From assembly GCA_021162205.1 (NCBI GenBank), contig JAGGZE010000017.1, positions 1-34,213 on the forward strand: a DNA stretch of 34,213 bases, read 5' to 3'. This document shows, in pieces, positions 8,363-29,661 of this stretch. Under the pieces are notes generated by a model. It was given only the letters and a program-made list of their open reading frames with translations. It was not told the DNA's origin and did no database searches. The stretch is from a bacterium. GTDB taxonomy: Bacteria; UBP14; UBA6098; B30-G16. A program made the position numbers and the translations under genes. Position 1 is the first letter of the stretch; each line of letters opens with the position of its first letter.

Positions 8363-9724
8363 ATGAAATTCAAATTTTCTGTCACAATATTGTTTATTCT
8401 TGCAACATCTTGCTTAGCGATGAGGTATTTGCATTCGACAAACACTGTTGCACTTCGTGTCGATGATGTATATCCCGCCGGATTTGTGGAATTTTTATAT
8501 TATCCGATGGATAGCAGCGATGTGCTGTGGCGAGCTTTTTTAGGTCTCGATTTCAACAACGATGTCGAAATTTATCATGGTAGAGCGAACGATGAAGGCG
8601 ACCTTTCCGATGTTACTTTTATGTCGATTGCAGAACTCGAACTTACAGAGGATACACTGCTCGACTCGACGATGGTTATCGATTCGACAGACTCGGCGAT
8701 TTACGATACGACATACACTGTCGATACCATAATAACCTATGCGGAAACGAGATGTTCATTTCAATCCACCGATTTCAGACTTCGATTAGACCAGATTGTA
8801 ACATCGAATTACAATGGCGAACCGTATATCGAAATTGTGTGGATATTGACAAATATCGGCAGCGAAGACCTCGATGATGGCAATGTAGTTTTTCATTTCG
8901 ATGGAGATGTCCCCGACGATTTCTGGGATGACGATGTCCCTATCGAATTTCCATCGAAATCGAGTGCCTGTCAGATGGCATCGTCCAGCGATTCTAACTG
9001 CGCAGGTTTTATATGGCTTTCGGGCGGCGAGAATCATCGACTCGAAAATACACTCGATTGGGCATCTTATGGAATTTCTGTCGATTCGCTTATTTCATTT
9101 ATAAATGGTGATTTCTGGCTCGATTCAGAACATTTCGATGTCGATTCATCGGGAGATACTACATATCCATCCTGGGCAGACAGCATTTATGGCGATGCCG
9201 GTGTGGGACTGTTATTTTCACTGCCAGATATGTCCACAGGCGATATCGAGACATTATCCTTTTATTTTGCTGCGGCACCGACACCGGATAGTTTCGCTGT
9301 TTTAGTGGATTCATTTGCGAAAATCGACGAACCCAAATACACAAGCAATTTGCCCGAACAAATTCGCATCGATGCATATCCGAACCCTTTTAATTCATCC
9401 TGCAAAATCACAATTTCGTATAATGGAAATTCCGCTGGTGTTGCAAGGAATTTCGACTTTGTCGGCAAGGTCCCGACTTCATCGGGATTCAGAAAAAAGC
9501 AATGCGAAGAAAAGAGCCGAAGGGCTCAAAATACCTTAAAGGTGTTCGATTTGCGGGGGAATATCGTTGGTTCGACAAGCTCACCAACCGACAATGGTTC
9601 AACGAATAGTGCCCGCACATTTATCTGGCACCCGAAAAAATCTACACCCAGCGGGGTATATCTCGTGCATATTGTTATGGATAATGGGCAAACTGCTGTT
9701 AAGAAAATCGTATATATCGAGTAA
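8363..9724 (+). CDS. Secreted protein with type IX-like C-terminal sorting domain and an in-frame repeat insertion
   Basis: The 453-residue protein starts with a signal peptide (MKFKFSVTILFILATSCLA) behind AGGGAGT. The body (about 20-330) is rich in Asp, Ser and Thr and looks like a beta-rich surface domain with no recognised enzyme motif. The C-terminus has the sorting signature YPNPFNSS near 338-345 and ends in SGVYLVHIVMDNGQTAVKKIVYIE-like strands. Residues about 360-390 (VARNFDFVGKVPTSSGFRKK onward) are encoded by a copy of the dispersed structured repeat, lying between the strand CKITISYNG and the strand TLKVFDLRG. The insertion keeps the frame. Function of the body is unknown. The mnmE gene begins 3 bp after its stop. 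Confidence 0.85.
   Translation: MKFKFSVTILFILATSCLAMRYLHSTNTVALRVDDVYPAGFVEFLYYPMDSSDVLWRAFLGLDFNNDVEIYHGRANDEGDLSDVTFMSIAELELTEDTLLDSTMVIDSTDSAIYDTTYTVDTIITYAETRCSFQSTDFRLRLDQIVTSNYNGEPYIEIVWILTNIGSEDLDDGNVVFHFDGDVPDDFWDDDVPIEFPSKSSACQMASSSDSNCAGFIWLSGGENHRLENTLDWASYGISVDSLISFINGDFWLDSEHFDVDSSGDTTYPSWADSIYGDAGVGLLFSLPDMSTGDIETLSFYFAAAPTPDSFAVLVDSFAKIDEPKYTSNLPEQIRIDAYPNPFNSSCKITISYNGNSAGVARNFDFVGKVPTSSGFRKKQCEEKSRRAQNTLKVFDLRGNIVGSTSSPTDNGSTNSARTFIWHPKKSTPSGVYLVHIVMDNGQTAVKKIVYIE
9440..9531 (+). repeat. Structured repeat, copy B, in frame inside a coding sequence
   Basis: It starts GTTGCAAGGAATT, then hairpin CGAC-TTT-GTCG (9454-9464), hairpin TCCCGA..TCGGGA (9471-9487), the linker TTCAGAAAAAAGCAATGCGA and the distal hairpin GAGCC..GGCTC (9514-9527). 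The core and linker are nearly identical to copy A at 5366-5440. In this sense orientation the A-rich linker comes before the hairpin, so no T-run follows it and it should not terminate the host gene. Confidence 0.88.
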
Positions 9725-11291: not shown

Positions 11292-11342
11292 CGCGAAACT
11301 ATAGTAAGTGTAATGATTGGTAAATTTAAATTGAAAGTAAAA

Positions 11343-11416
11343 TGGCGGGGGAAGGATTTGAACCTTCGACCTCCGGGTTATGAGCCCGGCGAGCTACCTG
11401 TCTGCTCCACCCCGCA
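11343..11416 (-). tRNA. Initiator tRNA-fMet (CAU anticodon)
   Basis: The 74-nt tRNA has anticodon loop CTCATAA. Initiator hallmarks are visible: three consecutive G-C pairs at the base of the anticodon stem (GGG...CCC), an A11:T24 pair in the D-stem and no Watson-Crick pair at 1-72. Positions 2-7 GCGGGG pair with 66-71 CCCCGC, while position 1 is T and position 72 is C, with discriminator A73. The usual bacterial initiator has C1 and A72, so this is a variant of the same hallmark. CCA is not encoded. Confidence 0.93.
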
Positions 11417-11425
11417 ATTAATCGA

Positions 11426-12331: not shown

Positions 12332-13459
12332 ATGGGTCATGTTTATATACCTGGATTAAAAGTAACCGAATTTGAACTCGTTCAAAAAGAAAGGATTCTT
12401 CCATTAAAGGGAGATGTAATAGTTTCCATCGGCGATAGGGTCCAACCCGATACAACAGTTGCTCGAACTTTTCTTCCGGGTAAAATCGAATCCAAAAATA
12501 TAGCAGGACTTCTCTCTATCGACCCTGAAGACATCGAATTATATCTATTGAAAAAAGTTGGAGATAGTTTCAAAAAAGACGAGATTATCGCTCAAAATAA
12601 AGGTTTTTTCGGATTATTTAAGACTCAAGTAAAGACCTCGTTTATTGGAACTTTAGAAACTGTTTCAAAAGTGACAGGGCAAGCGATTTTACGAGCCGAA
12701 CCCGTTCCTCTCGAGGTTAAAGCTTATATACCCGGTATCGTGAAAGAAATATATCCCGACGAGGGCGTGCTTATCGAAACCTGGGCATCGTTTGTGCAGG
12801 GAATTTTTGGTATAGGGGGCGAAAGATTCGGCACGATTAAATTTCTCGCAGATTCTCCCGATAGCATTTTAGATGAGAATAAAATAGATGAAACTTGCCG
12901 AGACCATATTTTAATCGGCGGCGGAATGGTTACCGCAAAAGCTATTAAAAAAGCTGAATCGGTCGGTGTTAATGGAATCGTTACCGGCGGAATCGAAGCT
13001 TTGGATGTAGCAGATTATCTAGGATACGACATCGGTGTCGCTATAACAGGTTCCGAGGATATAGATTTATCACTGATGATTACAGAAGGTTTTGGACATA
13101 TCCCGATGGCACAAAAAACATTCGAACTACTGAGAAAATACGATGGTATGGAAGCATCGATAAACGGTGCTACTCAGATTCGTGCTGGTGTTATTCGTCC
13201 CGAAATTGTGATTAAGCAAAATGAACCATCGAATGAGATTAAAGAAAAAATGATGGCGAAAATGCAAGGTATCGAAACAGGTTCTATTGTGCGAGTGATA
13301 CGAGTTCCATATTTTGGCAGAATCGGCAAAATTGTGGGACTGCCATCGGAATTAAAACAACTCGAAAGTGAAACTTATGCTCGTGTTTGTGAAATAGAAT
13401 TCGATGATGGCACGCAGGCAACTGTGCCTCGAGCCAATCTCGAGATGATTGAAGACTAA
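12332..13459 (+). CDS. Conserved protein of the DUF6754 cluster with barrel-like and KOW-like domains
   Basis: This 375-residue soluble protein has AAGGAGGAAAAC before the ATG. No signal peptide or membrane helix is seen. The N-terminal part (1-130) contains two beta-rich segments of the barrel-sandwich kind (GDVIVSIGDRVQPD near 28-41 and KKVGDSFKKDEIIAQNKG near 73-90). The middle (about 185-285) has a Gly-rich alpha/beta stretch, DHILIGGGMVTAKAIKKAES and GIVTGGIEALDVADYLGYD. The C-terminus (about 320-375) looks like a KOW/SH3-like barrel (GSIVRVIRVPYFGRIGKIVG). It is the first gene of a tight plus-strand run with a DUF6754 protein 10 bp behind. Its function is unknown; I infer a cytoplasmic partner of the membrane proteins. 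Confidence 0.65.
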   Translation: MGHVYIPGLKVTEFELVQKERILPLKGDVIVSIGDRVQPDTTVARTFLPGKIESKNIAGLLSIDPEDIELYLLKKVGDSFKKDEIIAQNKGFFGLFKTQVKTSFIGTLETVSKVTGQAILRAEPVPLEVKAYIPGIVKEIYPDEGVLIETWASFVQGIFGIGGERFGTIKFLADSPDSILDENKIDETCRDHILIGGGMVTAKAIKKAESVGVNGIVTGGIEALDVADYLGYDIGVAITGSEDIDLSLMITEGFGHIPMAQKTFELLRKYDGMEASINGATQIRAGVIRPEIVIKQNEPSNEIKEKMMAKMQGIETGSIVRVIRVPYFGRIGKIVGLPSELKQLESETYARVCEIEFDDGTQATVPRANLEMIED

Positions 13460-13469
13460 AGGAGGCATA

Positions 13470-16193
13470 GTGAAATATTTTATATTTTCCGTTTTGATTT
13501 TCAGCTTAATTTTGGGCATCCCGAGTTTCGCTCAAAATCCACCCAAACCATTAACTCCAATTATCACAGATATTTCCGGCGATGGTGGAAATAATTTGAT
13601 TTTGAAATGGAAACATTTTGAAACCGTCCCCGGAATATTGTATGAAATATATCGAAGTGAAAATGGGAAGGATTTCGAGTTGCTTTCACCGCTTCAGCTT
13701 AAAACGATGACACCTGTTTGGGAAACCGAAAAGAGAAACGATGTTTCCAATTGGGGTTTTTATGTGATTCCGCAAAAAAGCGAAGATACACGAATTATAA
13801 ATATTCAAATTGTTAAACCTACACCCGATAATTTGGATTCTTTTGTTTCGCTTGGAGCTGAAAAGATTGTTCGAGTCGAATTCGAGGTGCCTCCTGCAAA
13901 AAAACTTGCAGAAATTCCTAATCAGTTCGCTAATGGCACATTTTATCAGATTATCCCTGATGATGAAATCGCTCATCGTCCTCAACCATCGGCATCGACT
14001 GCGGGATTATTTAAGCCATTTGGAATTTCTTTGCCTGTCGATGGCAAAGTTGGGCTCGAGGTTTCCGCTAAAAATAGTGAATTTGAATTTGTCGATAAGG
14101 GGAAACGAATTGCTTCCGCCGAGGGAGAAATCCCGGCACTTTTGGCAAAATATGGCAAAAAAATAATCTCCATTGTTACCGAAAAAACACGATATACTGT
14201 AAAATATGATGATTTTGCATTCCCCGATAGAAAAACAGAACCGGAAAAGAAATATACTTATAAATTGAGACTTTATCAGGTTAAAAAACCGATTAAGAAA
14301 GTTTATGGCGAAAGCGATACCATATCTATAATTCCGAAAAATGAAGTGCCATTTGCACCGACAAAAACCGTCGCATTGCTCGATACCGTTTCAAATAATG
14401 TCGTTCTTCATTTTGCTTACGACCCTTCTGTTGCAGGATTGAAATCATATTTCGACGATTCGATTTTCGTTATTTATAAAACAAAAATCGGCGATACACT
14501 TTGCGAGAATGGAACGAAAATCAATACGATTAATTCGAGTTGGAAATTTTTCACAATCGATAAAATTGAACTCGACGATGTTTTTTATGTCGAGGTTTTC
14601 GATAAGAGCGGACTAAGCGCTAAAACTTCTCTTATCGAACATACGATAGCCGAATTTAAAGAACCACCGATACCACCTAATTTAAGGACAGTCGATTATG
14701 AAAACGACGAGGGTAAAAAAATCGCTGTTCGATGGAATCCTCCAACTCTTGCGGTTGGATACAATATCGACGATGTAATTCCTAATACTAAGGTCGAGGA
14801 TATTTCGGATAAAAATCTTTATCTCGTGCATACTGAAAAAGGTGATACCGTAATGCAAATAACCGATACAACATCGATACCCGATGGTGCACAGAAAATA
14901 TCGACTTTATCTTATTCTATTCCGGGAAATCAAAAAGTTCTCAAAATCGAATATAATATGATAGTAAATCCAGATGACGATGTCTTGTATCCCAAATTTT
15001 CGCTCGATGAAATTAACAAAGTGGATATCGATGTTACGGGGGAAATTAAATTCGACGATATCGAGGATAAAAAATATACACTCGAAGGCTGGATGATTTC
15101 GAAAACCGGTGGGAAATTGGAAAATCCCGAAGCTCGAGTTGAAATGACTATCGATGCTACTTATATCAACAATGTTCCAATCGATATTCCTCCGTATACT
15201 TATTTCATATATCGTGGCACCGATGCTAAGGATTTTTCCACTTTTAAGTTTGTTGGAACAGTCGGTGCAGATTCGCGGGAATTTGTGGATGGTTTCACCG
15301 AACTTCCCAAGAAAGTGCTTCCCGAAGGTGAATTCTATTATTTTGTTCAAGTTCTCGGTCCCGATGGCTCTGTTAAAACATCGGATATAATGGGACCTAT
15401 CGCTCCGAAAGGGAATTTATTCAATTGGAATAAAGTAGCCGTATTTCTCGCCACATTGATTCTTGTTATTGCCGCACTTTTTTTCTTTTATCATGCGAAA
15501 AAAGGGAAGAAATTTTACATTCGTCCGATAGCCGGTGTAGTTCATATCGATGAGGCACTTGGGCGAGCTACCGAGATGGGCAGACCGATTATCTATGTTA
15601 CAGGACTCGGTGTTATTTCGGAACTCGCTACACTTGCTTCTATTACTATACTCGGGCGTGTCGCTCAAAAATGTGCCGAATATCAAAATAAACTTATTTT
15701 GCCTTGTTATGACCCTATAGTTATGATTGTAGCTCAGGAGACAGTGAAAAATGCTTATTCCGATGAAGGTCGTCCCGACCTTTACCGTGAGGAAAATATC
15801 TATTACATCGCCGCTCAGCAATTCGCTTATGCAGCAGCTGTTTCTGGACTTATGATTAGAGAAAAAAGCGCAGCTAATTTCTTTATCGGGAAATTTTTCG
15901 CAGAATCTCTTATACTCGCTGAAACTGGGGCATCTACAGGCGCTATTCAGGTTGCAGGCACCGATGATATGACTCAATTGCCGTTTTTCATTACCGCATG
16001 CGATTATACGATTATCGGTGAGGAACTTTATGCAGCATCTGCGTATCTATCCGATGACCCGATGCAGAAAGGTTCACTTAAAGCGCAGGATTTTCTAAAA
16101 TTGCTCGAAATGATTGTTATAATTGGTGGAACTGTCGCCGCAACCACCGGACTTTGGTGGATTGTGCATTGGTTCCAGGTTTTAGGAGAATAA
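13470..16193 (+). CDS. Large exported fibronectin-type/DUF6754 membrane protein
   Basis: The chosen start is GTG 13470 behind AAAGGAGG; an ATG at 13449 is in frame but overlaps the preceding gene and lacks a binding site. The product of 907 residues begins with a signal peptide (MKYFIFSVLIFSLILG..SFAQ). Residues about 25-650 are beta-rich with fibronectin-type-III-like segments (GNNLILKWKHFE, KKIAVRWNPPT) and should lie outside the cytoplasm. A membrane helix follows (VAVFLATLILVIAALFFFYH, about 655-675). Then comes a DUF6754-like domain of about 200 residues (HIDEALGRATEMGRPIIYVT, ETGASTGAIQVAGTDD), ending with a second hydrophobic segment near 875-895. The biochemical role is not known. It is the central member of the cluster. 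Confidence 0.8.
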   Translation: MKYFIFSVLIFSLILGIPSFAQNPPKPLTPIITDISGDGGNNLILKWKHFETVPGILYEIYRSENGKDFELLSPLQLKTMTPVWETEKRNDVSNWGFYVIPQKSEDTRIINIQIVKPTPDNLDSFVSLGAEKIVRVEFEVPPAKKLAEIPNQFANGTFYQIIPDDEIAHRPQPSASTAGLFKPFGISLPVDGKVGLEVSAKNSEFEFVDKGKRIASAEGEIPALLAKYGKKIISIVTEKTRYTVKYDDFAFPDRKTEPEKKYTYKLRLYQVKKPIKKVYGESDTISIIPKNEVPFAPTKTVALLDTVSNNVVLHFAYDPSVAGLKSYFDDSIFVIYKTKIGDTLCENGTKINTINSSWKFFTIDKIELDDVFYVEVFDKSGLSAKTSLIEHTIAEFKEPPIPPNLRTVDYENDEGKKIAVRWNPPTLAVGYNIDDVIPNTKVEDISDKNLYLVHTEKGDTVMQITDTTSIPDGAQKISTLSYSIPGNQKVLKIEYNMIVNPDDDVLYPKFSLDEINKVDIDVTGEIKFDDIEDKKYTLEGWMISKTGGKLENPEARVEMTIDATYINNVPIDIPPYTYFIYRGTDAKDFSTFKFVGTVGADSREFVDGFTELPKKVLPEGEFYYFVQVLGPDGSVKTSDIMGPIAPKGNLFNWNKVAVFLATLILVIAALFFFYHAKKGKKFYIRPIAGVVHIDEALGRATEMGRPIIYVTGLGVISELATLASITILGRVAQKCAEYQNKLILPCYDPIVMIVAQETVKNAYSDEGRPDLYREENIYYIAAQQFAYAAAVSGLMIREKSAANFFIGKFFAESLILAETGASTGAIQVAGTDDMTQLPFFITACDYTIIGEELYAASAYLSDDPMQKGSLKAQDFLKLLEMIVIIGGTVAATTGLWWIVHWFQVLGE

Positions 16194-16220
16194 TTTCGTT
16201 TTTTATCATAGGAGGATATA

Positions 16221-16868
16221 ATGTTTTGGAAAAAGCAATTGCCGATTATTATCGTATTTTTAAGTGGTGTGATTATGACAGTTCAATATTTCGTTCCACT
16301 TCACGCTTCCGAATTTGTATTCGATAACTATATAAAATGGGGTATCTCCATCGGTATTTTTGCTGCTATTCTTGGATATTTCAGTTTTATTCGAGTTCAT
16401 ATTATGAAAATTACCAAAAAAGCGCCGAATTGGGGATATTCGATTGTGGCTCTTGCCGGTGTTGTCCTTATGATTGTCGCTGCTCTTATCGATGGCACAG
16501 ATACAAATGGTTATTATATGAAGTTTTATTTATACATTTGTGCGTCGATTAATGCTACTGTTTTTTCACTGCTTGCATTTTACATTTCATCTGCGGCATA
16601 TCGAGCGTTCAGGGCTCGTTCGTCTCAAGCTGTGGCGCTGCTGCTCGCTGCGACTATCGTTATGCTCGGTCGTGTGCCGATTGGCGATTATTTCAGTTTC
16701 TGGACACATTGGGGATTACCATCGTTTTATGATATGGCACAATGGATTCTCAATGTTCCAAATATGGCGGCGAAAAGAGCTATCGCACTCGGTGTCGGTC
16801 TCGGCTCCTTGTTGATGACATTAAAGTTAATTCTTGGCATTGAGAGAACTTATCTCGGTGGCGAATAA
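16221..16868 (+). CDS. Multi-pass membrane protein of the DUF6754 cluster
   Basis: The 215-residue protein has a TAGGAGGATATA ribosome binding site and about six hydrophobic segments: 5-22, 35-52, 68-86, 92-118, 127-143 and 195-210. A basic loop (RVHIMKITKKAPN) lies around residue 55-67. I do not recognise a family. It sits 27 bp after the large DUF6754 gene and 17 bp before the next membrane gene, so it is almost certainly co-transcribed and probably part of the same membrane assembly. Confidence 0.75.
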   Translation: MFWKKQLPIIIVFLSGVIMTVQYFVPLHASEFVFDNYIKWGISIGIFAAILGYFSFIRVHIMKITKKAPNWGYSIVALAGVVLMIVAALIDGTDTNGYYMKFYLYICASINATVFSLLAFYISSAAYRAFRARSSQAVALLLAATIVMLGRVPIGDYFSFWTHWGLPSFYDMAQWILNVPNMAAKRAIALGVGLGSLLMTLKLILGIERTYLGGE

Positions 16869-16885
16869 AATAAGGGGGTATATCG

Positions 16886-17707
16886 ATGAATTTCTGGGAA
16901 AAACTCGAAAAACTCGACCGTAGGATAATTTATATTATAATTACACTTGCGGTTGTTTTGCCTTTTTTCTTTAGGATGGGGTTACCTATTAAGATTTCAC
17001 CCGAAACTAAAGCGATTTATGATTACATTCAAAATCTTTCTCCCACCGATGTAGTTTTCATATCGGGAGATTATGACCCTCAGGTCGATGCCGAGCTTAC
17101 GCCTATGTTCGAGGCGATTGTGCGACACTGTTTTGAAAGAAATGTCAAAATTGTCGTATCGAATGTATATAATCCGCAAGGTGTAGGACTTGTGGAACCG
17201 AGATTGAAAAAACTCGCTCAAGAATATAAAAAAGTATATGGTGTGGACTATGTGTTTCTCGGATGGAAATATGGTTATTCGCTACTTATAATGGGTATGG
17301 GACGAGACTTTAAGGGAACCTGGCAGACCGATTATTACAATACTAGTCTCGAGGATTTGCCATTGACGAGCAAGATAAATAACTATAACGACATCGCACT
17401 CGTTATTTCGCTGACTGGAAGTGGAGCTTATGTTGCCTGGATTTATTATGCTTATGTTCAGTTCAAAGCAAAGATTGCTGCTGGGATTACCGCTGTTATG
17501 GCTGCGGATTCGTATCCATATCTTCAGGCGGGTCAACTTATCGGACTTCTCGGTGGTTTGCGAGGTGCCGCCGAATATGAGCAACTTATTCATCATCCTT
17601 CACTCGGTTCTGCCGGAATGGAGGCTCAATCGTGGTCGCATATAGCCATTATTTTGTTTATAATACTCGGAAATCTTGGATATTTTATGTCGAGAAAGAA
17701 GAAATAA
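16886..17707 (+). CDS. Membrane-anchored alpha/beta protein of the DUF6754 cluster
   Basis: This 273-residue protein has AGGGGG before the ATG. One helix near 15-33 is followed by a soluble domain (about 35-215) with alternating strands and helices: DVVFISGDYDPQVDAE, VKIVVSNVYNP, VDYVFLGWKYG, ALVISLTGSG. A Gly-rich stretch AGQLIGLLGGLRGAAEYEQL lies near 215-234. A C-terminal helix (about 250-268) and KKK tail close the protein. The pattern recalls ClpP/SppA-like folds, but I see no certain catalytic serine set, so no enzyme activity is claimed. Its position between the other membrane genes suggests it is a subunit of the same complex. Confidence 0.72.
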   Translation: MNFWEKLEKLDRRIIYIIITLAVVLPFFFRMGLPIKISPETKAIYDYIQNLSPTDVVFISGDYDPQVDAELTPMFEAIVRHCFERNVKIVVSNVYNPQGVGLVEPRLKKLAQEYKKVYGVDYVFLGWKYGYSLLIMGMGRDFKGTWQTDYYNTSLEDLPLTSKINNYNDIALVISLTGSGAYVAWIYYAYVQFKAKIAAGITAVMAADSYPYLQAGQLIGLLGGLRGAAEYEQLIHHPSLGSAGMEAQSWSHIAIILFIILGNLGYFMSRKKK

Positions 17708-17741
17708 TAATTTTTGATAATATCCTCAAGGAGGTTGTAAT

Positions 17742-18374
17742 ATGCATTTAAGCACAGATCCGTGGGTATGGATAGCATTTTTCTTCACGCTTTCTATTTT
17801 CACTTTTTTATGGAAAGATAATTTTCTATACAAATTGGCTGAAAATGTTACGGTGGGAATCGGTATGGGTTTCTGGATAGTTCTCTGGTGGAATCAAACT
17901 GTTGTCGGTCAGTTCTGGACACCATTAAGCACCGATTTCGGCTCAAATTTTCATCTTATTATTCCCGCTATTATGGGTTTATTTATGATTACGAGAATTA
18001 TCCCGAAATATGCCTGGATGTCGCGGTATGCACTGGCATTCACTATCGGTTCGGGAGCTGGTTTCGGACTGCCGCGTGTTATTCAAGGCGGTGTTCTGCA
18101 ACAGCTATATGCAACTTTGCTCCCGATAAATTTTACTTCGGTCGGTCTGGGATATAATTTAATTATTATTATTGGAACACTTTCGAGTTTAATTTATTTC
18201 TTCTTCTCCAAAGAACACAAAGGTGCGATAGGTGGAGTTGCCAAACTCGGAATTTGGTTTCTTATGATAGGTTTTGGAGCTACTTTCGGATATACTGTGA
18301 TGGCTCGTCTTTCGCTTTTCATCGGGCGTGTGCTGTTCATCCTTAAAGATGTATTCGGTATGCATTTATTCTGA
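17742..18374 (+). CDS. Multi-pass membrane protein of the DUF6754 cluster
   Basis: The 210-residue protein is preceded by AAGGAGG. Hydrophobic segments fall at about 9-25, 33-48, 68-84, 95-115, 128-150 and 165-185, with a conserved-looking WWNQT segment near residue 50. No family is recognised. It follows the preceding membrane gene by 34 bp and is the last clear membrane component of the run. Confidence 0.72.
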   Translation: MHLSTDPWVWIAFFFTLSIFTFLWKDNFLYKLAENVTVGIGMGFWIVLWWNQTVVGQFWTPLSTDFGSNFHLIIPAIMGLFMITRIIPKYAWMSRYALAFTIGSGAGFGLPRVIQGGVLQQLYATLLPINFTSVGLGYNLIIIIGTLSSLIYFFFSKEHKGAIGGVAKLGIWFLMIGFGATFGYTVMARLSLFIGRVLFILKDVFGMHLF

Positions 18375-18394
18375 TAGAATAATTTTGCAATATT

Positions 18395-19201
18395 ATGAAA
18401 ATTCAATTTTTCACACATTGCATAGTTCTTATTGCTCTCGGGATAGGGGGGATAGGGCTTGTTTATGCCTATGACGCTCCTCTCGAATCCGATGAAATTA
18501 AATCTATATTACTTAAAAAACTCGTTCCAGATATCGATTCCGATACTATACCCGAATTATTCGGTGAATCGTCGATTCGTTTTGCACTTATCGATACACC
18601 TATTATGGCTATATCATCGTGGAAATTTTCCTATGACCCGAAAAGAATCTGGAAAGTGAAAAAACTCGAAATCAAGCGGATTTCAATCTATTCTGCCGAT
18701 AATGGCAAATGGTTCCCCACAACTATCGACGATGTCATTTCGCAAGCCACATTCGATAGCATTTCTCGACTGCTATTATATCCATTTTCGATAGTTGCCA
18801 AAAGATTTAGGGGATATTCATTCAAAGCTCAAAAGAAACGAGTCGAGGTCGATGGCAACGATTGTATTAAAATTTCGGTTCGACCGCTCAAAGAGGATAA
18901 TGATGAGGAATCTCCATTTTATGGCTATATCTATATCACAGACGATGACAATTCCCGACCGATAAGGTTCGAGCATAGAAAAGAAAGCACCACCGGGACA
19001 ATTATTGTCCGTTGGGAATTTAAAAATATAGATAAATTAAATTGCGTTTTTCCATACAAGTTTAAAATAACGACTCAAAATAAATTGTGTAATTTTAAGC
19101 TTATTTCGCAGATAAAAATATTTTTTGGAGATTTTGAAGTGCGTGGAAAATCGAATTCACAAGAAAATAATGTAAATGAGAATAAGAGGAGTATAAAATG
19201 A
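18395..19201 (+). CDS. Exported protein of unknown function
   Basis: The 268-residue product has an N-terminal hydrophobic signal (MKIQFFTHCIVLIALGIGGIGLVYA). The mature part is beta-rich with charged residues (WKVKKLEIKRISIYSAD, KKRVEVDGNDCIKISVRPL, GYIYITDDDNSRPIRFEH). This vaguely resembles LolA/RseB-like periplasmic lipid-binding folds, but not strongly enough for a call. It lies 20 bp after the last membrane gene of the DUF6754 cluster, and its final codons overlap the ATG of the class-V aminotransferase gene by four bases. That suggests it belongs to the same operon. Confidence 0.65.
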   Translation: MKIQFFTHCIVLIALGIGGIGLVYAYDAPLESDEIKSILLKKLVPDIDSDTIPELFGESSIRFALIDTPIMAISSWKFSYDPKRIWKVKKLEIKRISIYSADNGKWFPTTIDDVISQATFDSISRLLLYPFSIVAKRFRGYSFKAQKKRVEVDGNDCIKISVRPLKEDNDEESPFYGYIYITDDDNSRPIRFEHRKESTTGTIIVRWEFKNIDKLNCVFPYKFKITTQNKLCNFKLISQIKIFFGDFEVRGKSNSQENNVNENKRSIK

Positions 19202-20373
19202 AAATCAGAGATAAAATGACCTATCTCGATAACGGTGCGACCAGTTTTCCAAAACCTGCGGGAGTTATCGAGGCATTTGTGGATTTTGCAAAAAATATCG
19301 GAGCGAGTCCTGGTAGAGGCGCTTACGAACCTGCACAGATTGCCGAGGATAAAATCGACAGAACTCGTCAGCTCATAACAAAATTAATCGGTGCCAATGA
19401 CCCCAACAGAGTTGTTTTCACAAGCAATGCTTCGGAGGCATTGAATCTCGCTATTTTTGGATTGCTCGAACAAGGAGATAAAGTTGTTACCACGAGGATG
19501 GAACATAATGCTGTCATTCGTCCATTGCTCGAACTCGACCGAAGAGGAGTTATCGATATATTATGGACCGAGGTTAGGGATAATGGCAGACTCGATATCG
19601 AACAATTCTATGAACTTTTGGAAACTCCCGGTGTCGCTCTCGCAGTAACGACTGGAATAGCAAATTCCACAGGTGTAATCGTTCCATTCTGGCAAATCGG
19701 TGAATTCTGCCATAAACGCGGGATAACATATCTTGTCGATGGTGCACAGCTTTGCGGTGTATATCCTGTCAATGTTCTCGAGGATAATATCGATTTGCTT
19801 GCATTTACGGGACATAAGGGACTTTATGGACTTCCAGGAACGGGTGGATTGTATATTGGCAAAGGAATGGAGAAAAAACTTCGCCCGCTTATCTACGGTG
19901 GAACAGGGGGACATTCCGACCTGCCATCGATGCCGGACGAATTACCTGAAAAATACGAGCCTGGAACACCGAATACACCGGGTATTGTCGCACTCGGCGA
20001 GGGCGTAAGTTGGGTTCTCGAAAAAACTGTCGAGAAAATTCATCAGCATAAGCAAAAACTACTTTCGATGATGCTCGATATACTACGAGATGTCGATGGT
20101 ATCCAACTTTTCGGACCAAAAGACGACATCGACCGAACAGCAATAGTTCCTATTATTATTCCCGGTATCGAGCCTAAAATAGTGGCGGATATTTTATGGG
20201 AAGAATATAAAATCGCTGTGCGAGCGGGTTGCCATTGCGCTCCGCAAATTCATTTCGACATCGGAGCTCCGCAGGGAACGGTGCGATTTTCATTCGGTGC
20301 ATTCAACACTGTCGAGGATGTCGAATATGCTGCCGAGGCAGTCATCGAAATAGTAAAAAATTATGCTAAATAA
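19198..20373 (+). CDS. Class-V aminotransferase / cysteine desulfurase family protein
   Basis: This 391-residue PLP enzyme has the cysteine-desulfurase fold. TYLDNGATSFPKP (8-20) opens the protein. EHNAV holds His103, which stacks on PLP; DGAQ has Asp181; and TGHKG has the Schiff-base Lys207. Near the C-terminus RAGCHCAP contains Cys345 and Cys347, one of which should be the active cysteine that takes the persulfide. The sequence fits the subfamily of short cysteine-desulfurase-like proteins rather than classical IscS or SufS, and no isc/suf scaffold gene is nearby. It overlaps the exported-protein gene (ATGA), so it is probably the distal gene of that operon. Sulfur transfer is likely but the acceptor is unknown. 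Confidence 0.88.
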   Translation: MKIRDKMTYLDNGATSFPKPAGVIEAFVDFAKNIGASPGRGAYEPAQIAEDKIDRTRQLITKLIGANDPNRVVFTSNASEALNLAIFGLLEQGDKVVTTRMEHNAVIRPLLELDRRGVIDILWTEVRDNGRLDIEQFYELLETPGVALAVTTGIANSTGVIVPFWQIGEFCHKRGITYLVDGAQLCGVYPVNVLEDNIDLLAFTGHKGLYGLPGTGGLYIGKGMEKKLRPLIYGGTGGHSDLPSMPDELPEKYEPGTPNTPGIVALGEGVSWVLEKTVEKIHQHKQKLLSMMLDILRDVDGIQLFGPKDDIDRTAIVPIIIPGIEPKIVADILWEEYKIAVRAGCHCAPQIHFDIGAPQGTVRFSFGAFNTVEDVEYAAEAVIEIVKNYAK

Positions 20374-20508
20374 TTTGAAATAATTCTATGTCGAACGGGC
20401 GATTTCGACCGCGGGCAAAAAACGATTGCTATGAGTGATTTATCTATGGGAATGAATGTTCCGTCGGCATAAAATAAGAAAATGAATGGCAAAAAACAAG
20501 GAGATAAT

Positions 20509-22293
20509 ATGAGTGAAAAAGTTCTTTTGTCTGGTAATGAAGCTATAGCTCGTGGTGCTTACGAAGCTGGTGTTCACTTTGCATCGGCATATCCGGGCAC
20601 ACCATCGACCGAAATTCTCGAGAATGTCGCGAAGCATTACAGCGATGTAATCAAATGCCAATGGTCGACAAATGAGAAGGTCGCTGTCGAGGTCGCTATC
20701 GGTGCGTCATTCGGCGGTGCGAGAACATTGGTTACGATGAAACATGTCGGTGTGAATGTCGCTGCCGACCCGCTGTTCACACTATCAGAAACGGGTGTCA
20801 ATGGCGGATTTGTCATCGTTTCAGCAGACGACCCCGGTATGCACTCATCGCAAAACGAGCAAGATAATCGAAGATATGCAAAATTCGCTAAGATGGCATT
20901 GGTCGAACCATCGGATTCCAATGAGGCAAAAGAGTTTGTGGATTATGCTATGTCTCTTTCCGAAAAGTTCGATATACCGGTGATGATGAGAATCGGGACG
21001 CGAATCGCACATTCTAAAAGCATTGTCGGAATCGGCACGCGAAAAGATATTCCAATCAAAGATTATATTCCCGACATTCCCAAGCGGGTTGTCATCCCGG
21101 CGAATGCGAGAGTGCTTCATAAGAAACTCGAGGAAAGACTCGCCGAGCTGAAAGAATTTGCGAACAGTTCGCCGCTTAATAAAATCGAGCGAGGAGATTG
21201 GACTCGCGATGGTAAGAAAATCGGTATTATCACGAGCGGAATTTCATATCAGTATGCGAAAGAAGTGTTTCCCGATGCATCTATATTGAAACTCGGTTCG
21301 AGTTTCCCATTTCCCGATAAACTCGCTAAAACATTTTGCGATTCGGTCGATGAAATATGGATTATCGAAGAAAATGAGCCGTTTCTCGAGGAAGAATTGA
21401 AACTTGCAGGTCTCGGTGATAAAATCACAATCGGTAAAAACAAAATCCCAATTTGCGGGGAACTGAATCAGCAAATTATCAGAGAATCAATATTGGGTGA
21501 AAAATCCCGCACTCCGAATATAGATTTGTCCGAACTTCCCGCAAGACCGCCGGTATTGTGTCCCGGTTGCCCGCATCGAGGACTATTCTATATCGCACAG
21601 AAAATGAAACTTCACGGGACAACAGATATCGGCTGCTATACGCTCGGCGTAATTCCACCATTGAATCAGGGCGAAACCTGCATCTGTATGGGCGCATCCA
21701 TCGGTGTCGCATTCGGTATCGGTATCGCTCAGGGCAAAGAGGTCGGCAAAAAGTTTTTGTCATATATCGGCGACTCGACATTTCTACACAGCGGGATGAC
21801 CGAACTTGCAAATCTCGTATATAACAAGGGCAATGGTGTCGTCTGCATAATGGATAATTCCACGACAGCGATGACAGGACATCAGCCTCATCCTGGGACA
21901 GGCAGAACAATCACAGGTGAAGCGACATTCAAAGTGGATTATGCGGAAATCGCCAAAGCATTGGGTATCAAAAAAATCGTGCAAACGAATGCTTACGATT
22001 TGAAAGAAATCGAGGAAGCGTTGAAAGAAACGACATCCATAGATGAACCAGCGGTTATAATCAATCGAGGGCGATGTATTCTTTTGGATTGGAAAAAATT
22101 GGACATTACGCCGTTCCGTGTGGACACTGAAAAATGCACCGGCTGCGGATTATGTCTTAAAGTCGGCTGCCCATCGCTCTCGAAAGACCCCGACACAGGC
22201 AAAGCCGTCATCGATGAATTATTATGTGCGGGAAATCACTGCACAATTTGCGCGCAGGTTTGCCCATTCGATGCGATTGTTCCAGCAGAATAA
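20509..22293 (+). CDS. iorA: Indolepyruvate:ferredoxin oxidoreductase, alpha subunit
   Basis: The 594-residue subunit oxidises aryl-2-oxoacids from aromatic amino acids to acyl-CoA with reduction of ferredoxin. I start at ATG 20509 behind AAGGAGATA; an ATG nine codons earlier lacks a good site. Visible parts are the N-terminal pyrimidine-binding region (LLSGNEAIARGAYEAGVHFA), the TPP-binding half with DIGCYTLG and GDSTFLHSGM...NSTTAMTGHQPHPGTG, and a C-terminal pair of [4Fe-4S] motifs (CTGCGLCLKVGCPSL near 543-557 and CTICAQVCPFDAI near the end). All cofactor motifs look complete. The beta subunit gene iorB is not adjacent; it may lie elsewhere. The gene stands alone. Confidence 0.95.
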   Translation: MSEKVLLSGNEAIARGAYEAGVHFASAYPGTPSTEILENVAKHYSDVIKCQWSTNEKVAVEVAIGASFGGARTLVTMKHVGVNVAADPLFTLSETGVNGGFVIVSADDPGMHSSQNEQDNRRYAKFAKMALVEPSDSNEAKEFVDYAMSLSEKFDIPVMMRIGTRIAHSKSIVGIGTRKDIPIKDYIPDIPKRVVIPANARVLHKKLEERLAELKEFANSSPLNKIERGDWTRDGKKIGIITSGISYQYAKEVFPDASILKLGSSFPFPDKLAKTFCDSVDEIWIIEENEPFLEEELKLAGLGDKITIGKNKIPICGELNQQIIRESILGEKSRTPNIDLSELPARPPVLCPGCPHRGLFYIAQKMKLHGTTDIGCYTLGVIPPLNQGETCICMGASIGVAFGIGIAQGKEVGKKFLSYIGDSTFLHSGMTELANLVYNKGNGVVCIMDNSTTAMTGHQPHPGTGRTITGEATFKVDYAEIAKALGIKKIVQTNAYDLKEIEEALKETTSIDEPAVIINRGRCILLDWKKLDITPFRVDTEKCTGCGLCLKVGCPSLSKDPDTGKAVIDELLCAGNHCTICAQVCPFDAIVPAE

Positions 22294-22424: not shown

Positions 22425-22488
22425 TAATATAAATCGATGAATTGTAATGGAATAACACAATAAGGTATTTGAATTGGGCACGAATGAT

Positions 22489-24963
22489 ATGAAATGGATT
22501 TTTATAATTTTTCTCGGGATTTCGATTTTGTCTGCGATACCGCCGGAAAGCCATCCTTCGCTTTTCTTTGACTATGAAGATATTCCCGCGCTTCGCGAGC
22601 GAATTTTACGAGAACCATATAGTGAATGGTATTCTCGATTATTATCCCTCGCCGATGGGGCTATCGGCAGAGATTACTCCGATGCAATCGAATATACAAA
22701 ATCTTTCGATGCCCTAAGCTGTGGGTTCGCATATATTGTCGAGGATGATACTTCATATATAGAACAGGCATTGCAGGCGATATATGCAATCGATGACAGC
22801 GGATATTGGGGCGAAGAAGATGTCGACCACGCTGCTGTCGCGATGCAATACGCTATTGCTTACGATATAATTGCAGGCACGGGTATTCTCGATACTTTGT
22901 CCGAAATCGACCTGTATATAAGAAACGAAATCGCTTACAAATGCCATGAATTCTTTTTCAATCCATTTGTTCTTTTTATCCCGAACAATCACCAGACGAG
23001 ATATTACAGTGCTTTGGGGATGATGGCTTTGACAATCGCAGACTATATCGGCGATGCTGGCAGTCCCGATGATTGGTATTCGTTCGCAATCGAAAAAGTA
23101 AATGCGATGTTTAGAGGTTTTCAGGTCGATTCGGATTATGGCTATGCCGAGGGTCCAACTTATTTGAGATATGGTAATGAAATTTTTTTACCGTTCTCGT
23201 GGACTGTTTCTCATCTCGCTCCTGCCGATGACTTTTTCAGCGATGGTTTCTTCGAGCAGGTATTTATTACAAACCTTGCTCTCGTTATGCCGGATGGCAC
23301 TTTCCCCACACTCGATGATTCTTGGCGACAGAAAAGTCTATCGCTTTTATATCTGTCATCACTCGATAATGCACCGCTATTTTATTGGCAATGGTGGATG
23401 AACTACGATGAACTCGAAAGCGAAGGATTAAGTATGTTATCGAATATGCTGCTGATTCCCGCTATTTGCATTTACGACGATTCGATAGTTCCTCGAATGC
23501 CCGATTTCGGTCCCGATATATTCTTTCCCGAGGCCGGTTATGTAGTTTTCCGCACGAATTGGACAACCGATGCGGATTATATTCTTATGATGTGCGAACA
23601 CGGTATAGCTCGAAACGCTGGTTTGATGCACGAACATCCCGACCAAACAAGCATAATCGCAGCATCGGATGGCGAAATGGGGATTATATCGGGCGGCTAT
23701 CCAGGTTGGGACAGGAGAGATATTTCAAATCGAGCGGAAGACCACAATCTTATTCTTGTCGATGGTGAGGGACCGCCTATTGCAACAACGTTCACCCGTG
23801 CAGGTGTCGATGGATGGCTTTATGGATGGACAGATTTGGAAAATATCGGTGCGATAGCATGTTCATGCTCGTATTGCGAATGCAATTTCCAGCGAAGACT
23901 TATAAATATTCCGAATCTTTGCTGGTTCATCGCCGATAAGGTTATCGGTTCGGATTCGCACACTTTCGACCATCTCGTTCACGCAATCGGCAGTGTAGAT
24001 TACGGTGAAATCTTGCCGGATACAGCAGGGATGATAATAAATCTCGCAGGAACGCAGATGAAATCCTTTATATATTCCACAAACGATTCGGTTTCTTATT
24101 CGTTCGAACCCGATTCTTTTGCGATGAACTGGCACCATCTCGTGCCATCGACCGTTCTCAATACCGAAACCGCAGGAACAACCGCATTGTTCCTTTGGCA
24201 TTTGATTCCACGCTCCGATAGAGAAATCGAATATAATCTATGGCAGTGCGATGGTGCAATCGTAAGGGCTATAATTGCCGATGACGATACTGTAATCGCT
24301 GCGATAATCGAACCCGACGATACGCTTCCGACAAGTCCCGATGAATTTAATTTCGACACCGATGGCTGGTTTGCACTTTTCATTCCCGATGGCGATAGTT
24401 CTTTGACAATCCATATCGCCGACGGAACTTATGCAAATTTAAGGGAAAATGAGATATTTAACGCCGATACATCGGTTACGATTACGATTTCATTCGATTT
24501 CGGAAATTTTTTGATACGAGGTCATTGCGAAAACGATGCGGAAATAATATTGTCATATCTCGATAATTACAGTGTCGATTCTGTGGTTGTCGATAGCACG
24601 ACAGTTGATTTTTCGTATGATAATGTGAGTGTTTCATTCGATATTGCACAAGAAAGCGATTTCATAGTATATCTTTCCCCTATGGAAATCACCGAGCATT
24701 CTGCTCAAGTGAAATCCTATATAGAATTTTTTCCAAATCCATTTTCGAATATTTGTAAAATCCATATTCCTGCAGGAATGAATATTAAAATTTATAATAT
24801 TTCAGGCAAATGTGTATTCAGTCGTTCATTTCAAAATCGAGCGGGAAAAGATGTTATCTGGCAACCGAAAATCGATTTGCCACAAGGAATATACCTTCTC
24901 GTCGCAAACGATGAAAAAACCAAAAAACACATATCGAAAAAAATAATACACCTCCATCCTTAA
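22489..24963 (+). CDS. Exported heparinase II/III-like protein with C-terminal sorting domain
   Basis: I start at ATG 22489, which gives 824 residues and a clean signal peptide (MKWIFIIFLGISILSA); the frame also contains a TTG 15 bp earlier. An alpha-helical toroid-like part (about 25-330) is followed by a beta-sheet part with MHEHPDQTSII near 378-388 and RAEDHNLILVDGEGP near 412-426. This matches the pattern of heparinase II/III and alginate-lyase polysaccharide lyases. The last 80 residues (EFFPNPFSN onward, IKIYNISGK, LPQGIYLLVAND) are a type IX-like sorting domain. It probably degrades uronic-acid-containing polysaccharide at the cell surface. The substrate is not determinable. Confidence 0.85.
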   Translation: MKWIFIIFLGISILSAIPPESHPSLFFDYEDIPALRERILREPYSEWYSRLLSLADGAIGRDYSDAIEYTKSFDALSCGFAYIVEDDTSYIEQALQAIYAIDDSGYWGEEDVDHAAVAMQYAIAYDIIAGTGILDTLSEIDLYIRNEIAYKCHEFFFNPFVLFIPNNHQTRYYSALGMMALTIADYIGDAGSPDDWYSFAIEKVNAMFRGFQVDSDYGYAEGPTYLRYGNEIFLPFSWTVSHLAPADDFFSDGFFEQVFITNLALVMPDGTFPTLDDSWRQKSLSLLYLSSLDNAPLFYWQWWMNYDELESEGLSMLSNMLLIPAICIYDDSIVPRMPDFGPDIFFPEAGYVVFRTNWTTDADYILMMCEHGIARNAGLMHEHPDQTSIIAASDGEMGIISGGYPGWDRRDISNRAEDHNLILVDGEGPPIATTFTRAGVDGWLYGWTDLENIGAIACSCSYCECNFQRRLINIPNLCWFIADKVIGSDSHTFDHLVHAIGSVDYGEILPDTAGMIINLAGTQMKSFIYSTNDSVSYSFEPDSFAMNWHHLVPSTVLNTETAGTTALFLWHLIPRSDREIEYNLWQCDGAIVRAIIADDDTVIAAIIEPDDTLPTSPDEFNFDTDGWFALFIPDGDSSLTIHIADGTYANLRENEIFNADTSVTITISFDFGNFLIRGHCENDAEIILSYLDNYSVDSVVVDSTTVDFSYDNVSVSFDIAQESDFIVYLSPMEITEHSAQVKSYIEFFPNPFSNICKIHIPAGMNIKIYNISGKCVFSRSFQNRAGKDVIWQPKIDLPQGIYLLVANDEKTKKHISKKIIHLHP

Positions 24964-29112: not shown

Positions 29113-29126
29113 CCCGAAAGGTAATG

Positions 29127-29216
29127 CGGAGGGGGGGGGATTCGAACCCCCGGTCCCGAATAAACGGGACAACGGTTTTCGAGACCGCCCCGTTCGACCA
29201 GCTCCGGCACCCCTCC
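29127..29216 (-). tRNA. tRNA-Ser (CGA anticodon)
   Basis: The 90-nt class II tRNA has acceptor GGAGGGG paired with CCCCTCC and discriminator G. The anticodon stem GCGGT/ACCGT encloses loop CTCGAAA with anticodon CGA. A long variable arm (TGTCCCGTTTATTCGGGACC region) and a GGTTCGAATCC T-arm are clear. CCA is not encoded. A weak promoter-like TTGTCC and ATAAAT pair with 17-bp spacing lies upstream on the minus strand. Confidence 0.96.
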
Positions 29217-29567: not shown

Positions 29568-29570
29568 ATG

Positions 29571-29661
29571 CGGAGAGGGAGGGATTTGAACCCTCGGACC
29601 CGATTTCTCGGGTCACACGATTTCCAATCGTGACCCTTAAGCCAGGCTCGGACACCTCTCC
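29571..29661 (-). tRNA. tRNA-Ser (GGA anticodon)
   Basis: The 91-nt class II tRNA has acceptor GGAGAGG paired with CCTCTCC and discriminator G. The anticodon stem CACGA/TCGTG encloses loop TTGGAAA with anticodon GGA. A long variable arm (GACCCGAGAAATCGGGTC) and GGTTCAAATCC T-arm are present. CCA is not encoded. It is the second serine tRNA on the minus strand within 550 bp. Confidence 0.96.

Follow-up and report, generated by a model that had tools for sequence, protein, structure and literature searches.

Five adjacent genes, g1–g5, together with a gene for a MutL-like ATPase, almost certainly specify one functional system that is conserved over many bacterial phyla. The five genes occupy positions 12,332–18,374 of the window, the 34,213-nucleotide stretch of DNA analysed here, which is contig C55 of a 2.57 Mb UBP14 genome (95% complete). 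We tentatively propose that their products form the core of an ATP-driven complex of the inner membrane whose outside domains can be exchanged. Conservation of the genes, their operon structure, their co-inheritance, the topology given by the charge rule and the motifs of the ATPase are all directly supported.

Seven ORFs, all on the forward strand, can be read from the sequence at 12,332–20,373. The original prediction took them to encode a soluble barrel/KOW-like protein, a 907-residue protein with DUF6754, three membrane proteins without a known family, an exported protein and a cysteine-desulfurase-like enzyme; these descriptions all stand, as do the common direction and every spacing, both confirmed by ORF calls and sequence reading. 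The first gene, g1 (12,332–13,459), encodes a soluble protein of 375 residues with no transmembrane (TM) segment by hydropathy, comprising a barrel-like N-terminal region, an RraA-like swivelling domain and a KOW/SH3 domain. It is followed after 10 bp by g2 (13,470–16,193), which starts with a GTG codon at 13,470, preceded by AAAGGAGG, and encodes the 907-residue membrane protein (a signal peptide plus two TM segments). Gaps of 27, 17 and 34 bp then precede g3 (16,221–16,868; 215 residues, six TM segments), g4 (16,886–17,707; 273 residues, two TM segments) and g5 (17,742–18,374; 210 residues, at least four TM segments), all counted by hydropathy; g3 is kept 3′ of g2, and none of the three proteins matches a Pfam or NCBIfam family. 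A further 20 bp on lies g6 (18,395–19,201), whose 268-residue product has a signal peptide by hydropathy and whose last 4 bp (19,198–19,201) are shared with g7 (19,198–20,373), a member of the class-V aminotransferase/cysteine desulfurase family. The score of g7 against TIGR01977 (377.5 bits) is barely above the cut-off of 377, and its activity is putative. In a scan for promoters and terminators, terminators were no commoner than in shuffled background and promoters were slightly above it.

The tight spacing and the 4-bp overlap of g6 and g7 would suit a single seven-gene pathway with the desulfurase and the exported protein as working parts, but neither gene lies 3′ of g5 in other UBP14 families or in the loci of other phyla, and we regard such a pathway as most improbable. 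Matches to g6 were found only in three loci (L021, L024 and L031), all of the window's own family, and among UBP14 neighbourhoods g7 stands behind the core only in that same family; other UBP14 families have different exported proteins 3′ of g5. Because the relatives of g6 and the position of g7 are confined in this way, the conserved unit in the window is 12,332–18,374 and not 12,332–20,373. The idea that all seven genes build one membrane machine thus holds for g1–g5, given their conservation across phyla, their co-occurrence when unlinked and, more weakly, the finding of no match to a known transporter family, and is not supported for g6 and g7, which are local neighbours outside the conserved core.

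The neighbourhood of g1–g5 proved to be conserved across genera, families and phyla. Within UBP14, DUF6754 is encoded in 16 of 17 genomes, including all nine of good quality, and the order g1-g2-g3-g4-g5 is kept wherever contigs suffice; one UBP14 genome has a second copy of g2 inserted within this order. With one genome taken per species, confirmed relatives of DUF6754 occur on at least 562 contig stretches from at least 13 phyla. The best 80 of these at least 562 come from Zixibacteria, Cloacimonadota, Poribacteria, Fermentibacteria, Coatesbacteria, Eisenbacteria, Latescibacteria, WOR-3/Stahlbacteria/TA06, CSSED10-310, Mcinerneyibacteria, Effluviviacota, UBP7, UBP14 and Planctomycetota, and g2-g3-g4-g5 are consecutive in about 58 of the 80, from at least 13 phyla, as counted by reading; the remaining loci mostly meet contig edges or have genes masked by antisense frames in ORF picking. 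DUF6754 was found in none of 14 well-known control genomes. The flanking genes, named by eye from sequence, vary from one phylum to the next, suggest no shared pathway and offer no clue to a substrate. Those noted include PPDK-like and ADP-forming-ligase-like neighbours in Zixibacteria, a 3-phosphoglycerate-dehydrogenase-like gene in Fermentibacteria, shikimate-kinase-like and 3-dehydroquinate-synthase-like genes in Poribacteria and a glycine-cleavage-like gene in Eisenbacteria.

At some fifteen loci, most of them from Zixibacteria, the g2-g3-g4-g5 cassette is repeated in tandem, with two or three copies. A tree of DUF6754 domains sorts these copies by position, so that across Zixibacteria the first, the second and the third each have a clade of their own (10 rows with support 98, 10 rows with 99 and 14 rows with 93). 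The triplication is thus old, with every copy kept, and the copies should either differ in their job or share one hetero-oligomer.

Co-inheritance is seen most clearly among 294 Planctomycetota genomes, where DUF6754 was detected in 76, g1 in 71, g5 in 73 and the ATPase, above cut-off, in 80; all four are present in 64 genomes and none in 208. DUF6754 and g5 are found together in 72 genomes with 5 discordant (Fisher p 1e-62), DUF6754 and g1 in 68 with 11 discordant (p 2e-53), and DUF6754 and the ATPase in 70 with 16 discordant (p 4e-49); pairwise values range overall from 1e-47 to 1e-62, in tests that ignore relatedness. A stronger argument than these p-values is retention when the genes are unlinked: in several genomes (G334, G076, G268, G139 and G156) the parts lie far apart yet are all retained. 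The gene g1 adjoins that of the ATPase in 56 of 66 genomes, and in 49 of 67 its distance from DUF6754 is no more than 8 kb. A few genomes have DUF6754 with no detected g1 or MutL. In a set of 36 DUF6754 genomes, g1 was present in all and the MutL-like ATPase in 34.

The partner ATPase is a 600-residue protein of Pfam family PF13941 (MutL), encoded directly upstream of g1 in many phyla; in the window's genome it is found on a separate contig (G000 C23). This family takes its name from the ASKHA-type MutL of glutamate mutase, and not from the mismatch-repair MutL. Two small proteins, F7 and F10, are also encoded upstream of g1 in other phyla; neither was detected beside the ATPase in the window's genome. 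The order F10-F7-MutL-g1-g2-g3-g4-g5 is seen in CSSED10-310 (L162), a planctomycete (L211) has the same full operon, and F7-MutL-g1-g2-g3-g4-g5 occurs in several complete planctomycete chromosomes.

Three motifs, DCGSTTTK, GVDIGGATTD and GSGGVLSHAP, are at least 90% conserved across 18 members of the MutL-like family, and we take these to be the phosphate-1, phosphate-2 and adenosine motifs of the ASKHA (actin/Hsp70/acetate-kinase) superfamily. The partner therefore has the motif set expected of an ASKHA protein and is a predicted ATPase. Some of the same genomes also encode ATPase paralogues fused to a g1-like region that lacks the KOW domain, and these fusions support a physical pairing of ATPase and g1. 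The earlier statement that no activity could be assigned to the locus is narrowed by these motifs, and also by the absence of the clients known for related ATPases.

Those relatives, among them GlmL and Or-4, serve as accessory proteins in pathways of amino-acid mutases. The ATPase matches the GlmL and Or-4 models at E 1e-72 to 1e-59, so that it could be imagined to reactivate a cobalamin mutase, with the membrane complex in charge of cobalamin or of the substrate of the mutase. All tested ATPases, however, fall far below the GlmL and Or-4 cut-offs: two stand-alone ATPases score 245 and 224 bits against NF040745 (GlmL; cut-off 475) and 176.5 and 167.6 bits against TIGR01319 (GlmL family; cut-off 204), the copy in the window's genome having been assigned by Pfam alone. 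The ATPase thus shares with GlmL/MutL the broad PF13941 family and the ASKHA motifs, but differs in lying under every NCBIfam equivalog or subfamily cut-off, in its linkage to membrane genes and in carrying ∼100 or more additional residues at the C-terminus. Moreover, glutamate mutase (PF06368) was found in none of 17 UBP14 genomes, methylmalonyl-CoA mutase in none of eight genomes of the window's family (including the window's own, G000), and lysine aminomutase is missing from 27 of 30 carriers. Because these mutases are wholly or mostly absent, help to a B12 enzyme is a poor fit for the ATPase; we rejected this role, and the reading is very unlikely and largely refuted. Searches of open-licence papers on GlmL and on the signature proteins returned nothing relevant.

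The protein g2 comprises, in order, a signal peptide, an Ig/fibronectin-like outside region of ∼630 residues, a TM segment, DUF6754 and a second TM segment. DUF6754 covers residues 647–901 and is complete (PF20539, E 2e-111, 371.6 bits with the cut-off at 27, positions 2–256 of 257). The outside region is variable between phyla, and homologues have from 8 to 906 residues before the first TM segment (median 170). In DUF6754 itself, column identity within the window's phylum averages 77%, and motifs are kept between phyla. The charge rule places the domain in the cytosol, a positive flank following the first TM segment in all ∼105 homologues. In Pfam, PF20539 is a lone domain of unknown function, and among open-licence papers we found none on DUF6754; what is new beyond the Pfam entry is its set of fixed partners, namely g3, g4, g5, g1 and the MutL-like ATPase.

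In a joint model of the membrane proteins, described below, DUF6754 is an alternating β/α domain. It matches best a range of Rossmann folds, including Sir2, TrkA/RCK, dehydrogenases and glycosyltransferases (Z 7–11.5, where values below 8 may reflect a common arrangement alone), and is thus a Rossmann-like domain, located in the cytosol by the charge rule. The presence among these matches of the RCK domains of TrkA and MthK (Z 8.3–9.2, rmsd 3.0–4.1) raises the idea of a gated ion or solute channel, with DUF6754 as the gate on a multi-subunit channel of g3 and g5; like the RCK/TrkA domains of potassium transporters, DUF6754 would be a Rossmann-like cytosolic domain on a membrane complex. Sir2, however, outscores these RCK domains (Z 11.5), and dehydrogenases and glycosyltransferases reach similar values, so that the match indicates a Rossmann-like fold only. 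The GxGxxG loop is not conserved in DUF6754, being GLxxI in the alignment (A1), no TrkA/RCK or channel Pfam family matches it at E 0.1, and the membrane subunits are different from those of the potassium transporters. A channel would also leave the ATPase without explanation, and we consider this reading improbable.

The AlphaFold2 model of g1 (pLDDT 84.5) has a β-rich region in its N-terminal 120 residues, followed at residues ∼130–300 by the RraA-like swivelling domain (VIA-align Z 8.6–9.0 over 126–130 residues, rmsd 3.1–4.8). Residues 313–375 form the KOW/SH3 domain, which is evident by fold (Z 9.3, 1.1 Å over 51 residues), whereas by sequence it is below threshold (13 bits in Pfam). The middle and C-terminal domains of g1 thus have the folds of RraA and of the KOW/SH3 domains of NusG/Spt5, but sequence identity is only ∼12–24% and the same combination of domains is absent among the matches. 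No match to RnfC or NqrA was obtained, and scans of Pfam and NCBIfam gave the sub-threshold KOW alone. We infer that g1 is an adaptor and the partner of the MutL-like ATPase.

The resemblance of these g1 domains to RNA- or RNA-polymerase-associated proteins, together with a variable ectodomain joined to a constant cytosolic domain in g2, gives some weight to a complex with a sensory or regulatory role. In that case g2 and g4 would sense through their outside domains, DUF6754 would change state, and the ATPase and adaptor would act on RNA, ribosomes or a cytosolic enzyme. KOW-like SH3 folds are common, however, and are no proof of RNA binding; the neighbourhood contains no conserved kinase, cyclase or DNA-binding partner; and retention of g5, a membrane protein, is as strict as that of g2, seemingly beyond what a sensor needs. 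Sensing is the main rival to an ATP-driven machine, but we think it rather unlikely.

The remaining membrane proteins have distinctive features of their own. Conserved motifs are seen in g3 (AFRA and G.ER) and in g5 (YFFFS and FG..FG.TVM.R.SL). The g4 protein has a TM segment with its N-terminus inside, an α/β domain of ∼210 residues outside and a second TM segment with its C-terminus inside; by the charge rule the N-terminus is net positive in 96% of members and the C-terminus in 84%, placing the domain outside. In one locus (L086) g4 and g5 are naturally fused into one protein. Searches with PDB sequence profiles of g1, g3, g4, g5 and DUF6754 revealed no believable relative, and profile–profile comparison among the core proteins, including the g4 domain and DUF6754, whose kinship had been suspected, found no homology. 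A joint model of the C-terminal part of g2 with g3, g4 and g5 (A8) was obtained from L077, where the four genes lie in one frame, the stops being read as glycine. Its mean pLDDT is 74, with confidence lowest mainly at the artificial linkers, and its pTM of 0.71, which is no true interface score, is compatible with a complex. A Foldseek search with this joined model of 1093 residues, a weak query, gave no match at E ≤0.001, known transporters included; Rossmann folds and chance matches of helices make up most of the Foldseek and VIA-align listings.

Taken with the multiplied membrane cassettes, the constancy of the ATPase, adaptor and membrane block and the variability of the outside parts would suit an ATP-driven trans-membrane machine of exchangeable specificity. 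We infer a physical complex, coupled to ATP through g1 and acting in transport or at the envelope. The MutL-like ATPase would bind and hydrolyse ATP in the cytosol, and g1 would relay its cycle to g2 through DUF6754 on the cytosolic side. The membrane block of g2, g3, g4 and g5 would transmit the movement across the membrane to two outside parts, namely the g4 domain and the ectodomain of g2, which is variable; these could handle a cargo or partner during uptake, export or envelope assembly. On this scheme g2–g5 would be a specificity cassette that can be triplicated and served by few copies of the ATPase and adaptor. In ECF-type importers, which are modular and ATP-driven, one energy module is common to several membrane components, and an ATPase module that serves several exchangeable cassettes in the membrane would be analogous to this. 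The system described here is not a member of that family, however, having an ASKHA ATPase and no ABC ATPase, EcfT or S-component family.

The system appears to be undescribed, although more than 12 phyla, mostly uncultured, keep the set with a dedicated ATP-using protein. It is strongly conserved in hundreds of bacterial species, including anammox planctomycetes (Scalindua), Cloacimonadota and Zixibacteria, and membrane systems that are large, conserved and equipped with an ATPase of their own usually have a central role, in transport, envelope building or energy conversion. The finding defines a fixed set of genes and is hence testable. Our proposal, which we put forward with some reserve, is that a non-ABC, ASKHA-type ATPase and a dedicated adaptor power a membrane complex of four subunits whose outside domains are exchangeable, and that the whole would represent a new type of trans-membrane machine. 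With equal caution, we suggest that this machine may extend through much of the bacterial tree, from the candidate phyla around Zixibacteria and Cloacimonadota to the Planctomycetota. If true, the driving of membrane work by an ASKHA ATPase would be an unfamiliar coupling of ATP.

Downstream of the operon in the window lies iorA (20482–22293), whose product is identified as indolepyruvate ferredoxin oxidoreductase alpha by a score of 691 bits against a cut-off of 651. A DUF6754 cassette of a planctomycete locus, L208, is adjoined by genes resembling another 2-oxoacid:ferredoxin oxidoreductase, and the occurrence of such genes beside both loci is possibly a coincidence. Upstream of the operon, mnmE and frr flank a tRNA-Met gene (11342–11417); the window also encodes tRNA-Leu (101–183) and two tRNA-Ser (29126–29216 and 29570–29661).

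Two window proteins, a heparinase-like protein of 829 residues (22474–24963) and a protein of 453 residues (8363–9724), carry a C-terminal type IX secretion sorting domain (Por_Secre_tail), so that the organism probably possesses a type IX secretion system.

Among homologues of the membrane protein g4, that at L094:4075–6009 has HEAT-like repeats inserted at residues ∼150–460, which the topology assigns to its outside domain.

In other UBP14 families (L019, L023 and L029), a protein combining TPR and periplasmic-binding-fold (Peripla_BP_6) domains is encoded upstream of the MutL-like ATPase gene, recurrently beside F10-F7-MutL, F10 and F7 being small proteins; one of these proteins matches LppC (LpoA family). 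A MutL-like ATPase domain and a region resembling the soluble protein g1, lacking KOW, are joined in single proteins of ∼880–1050 residues (L155, L156, L157, L158, L159, L160, L161 and L195), the L195 gene adjoining one for a DUF2085 membrane protein. These fusions represent a second, undescribed use of the putative ATPase-adaptor pair.
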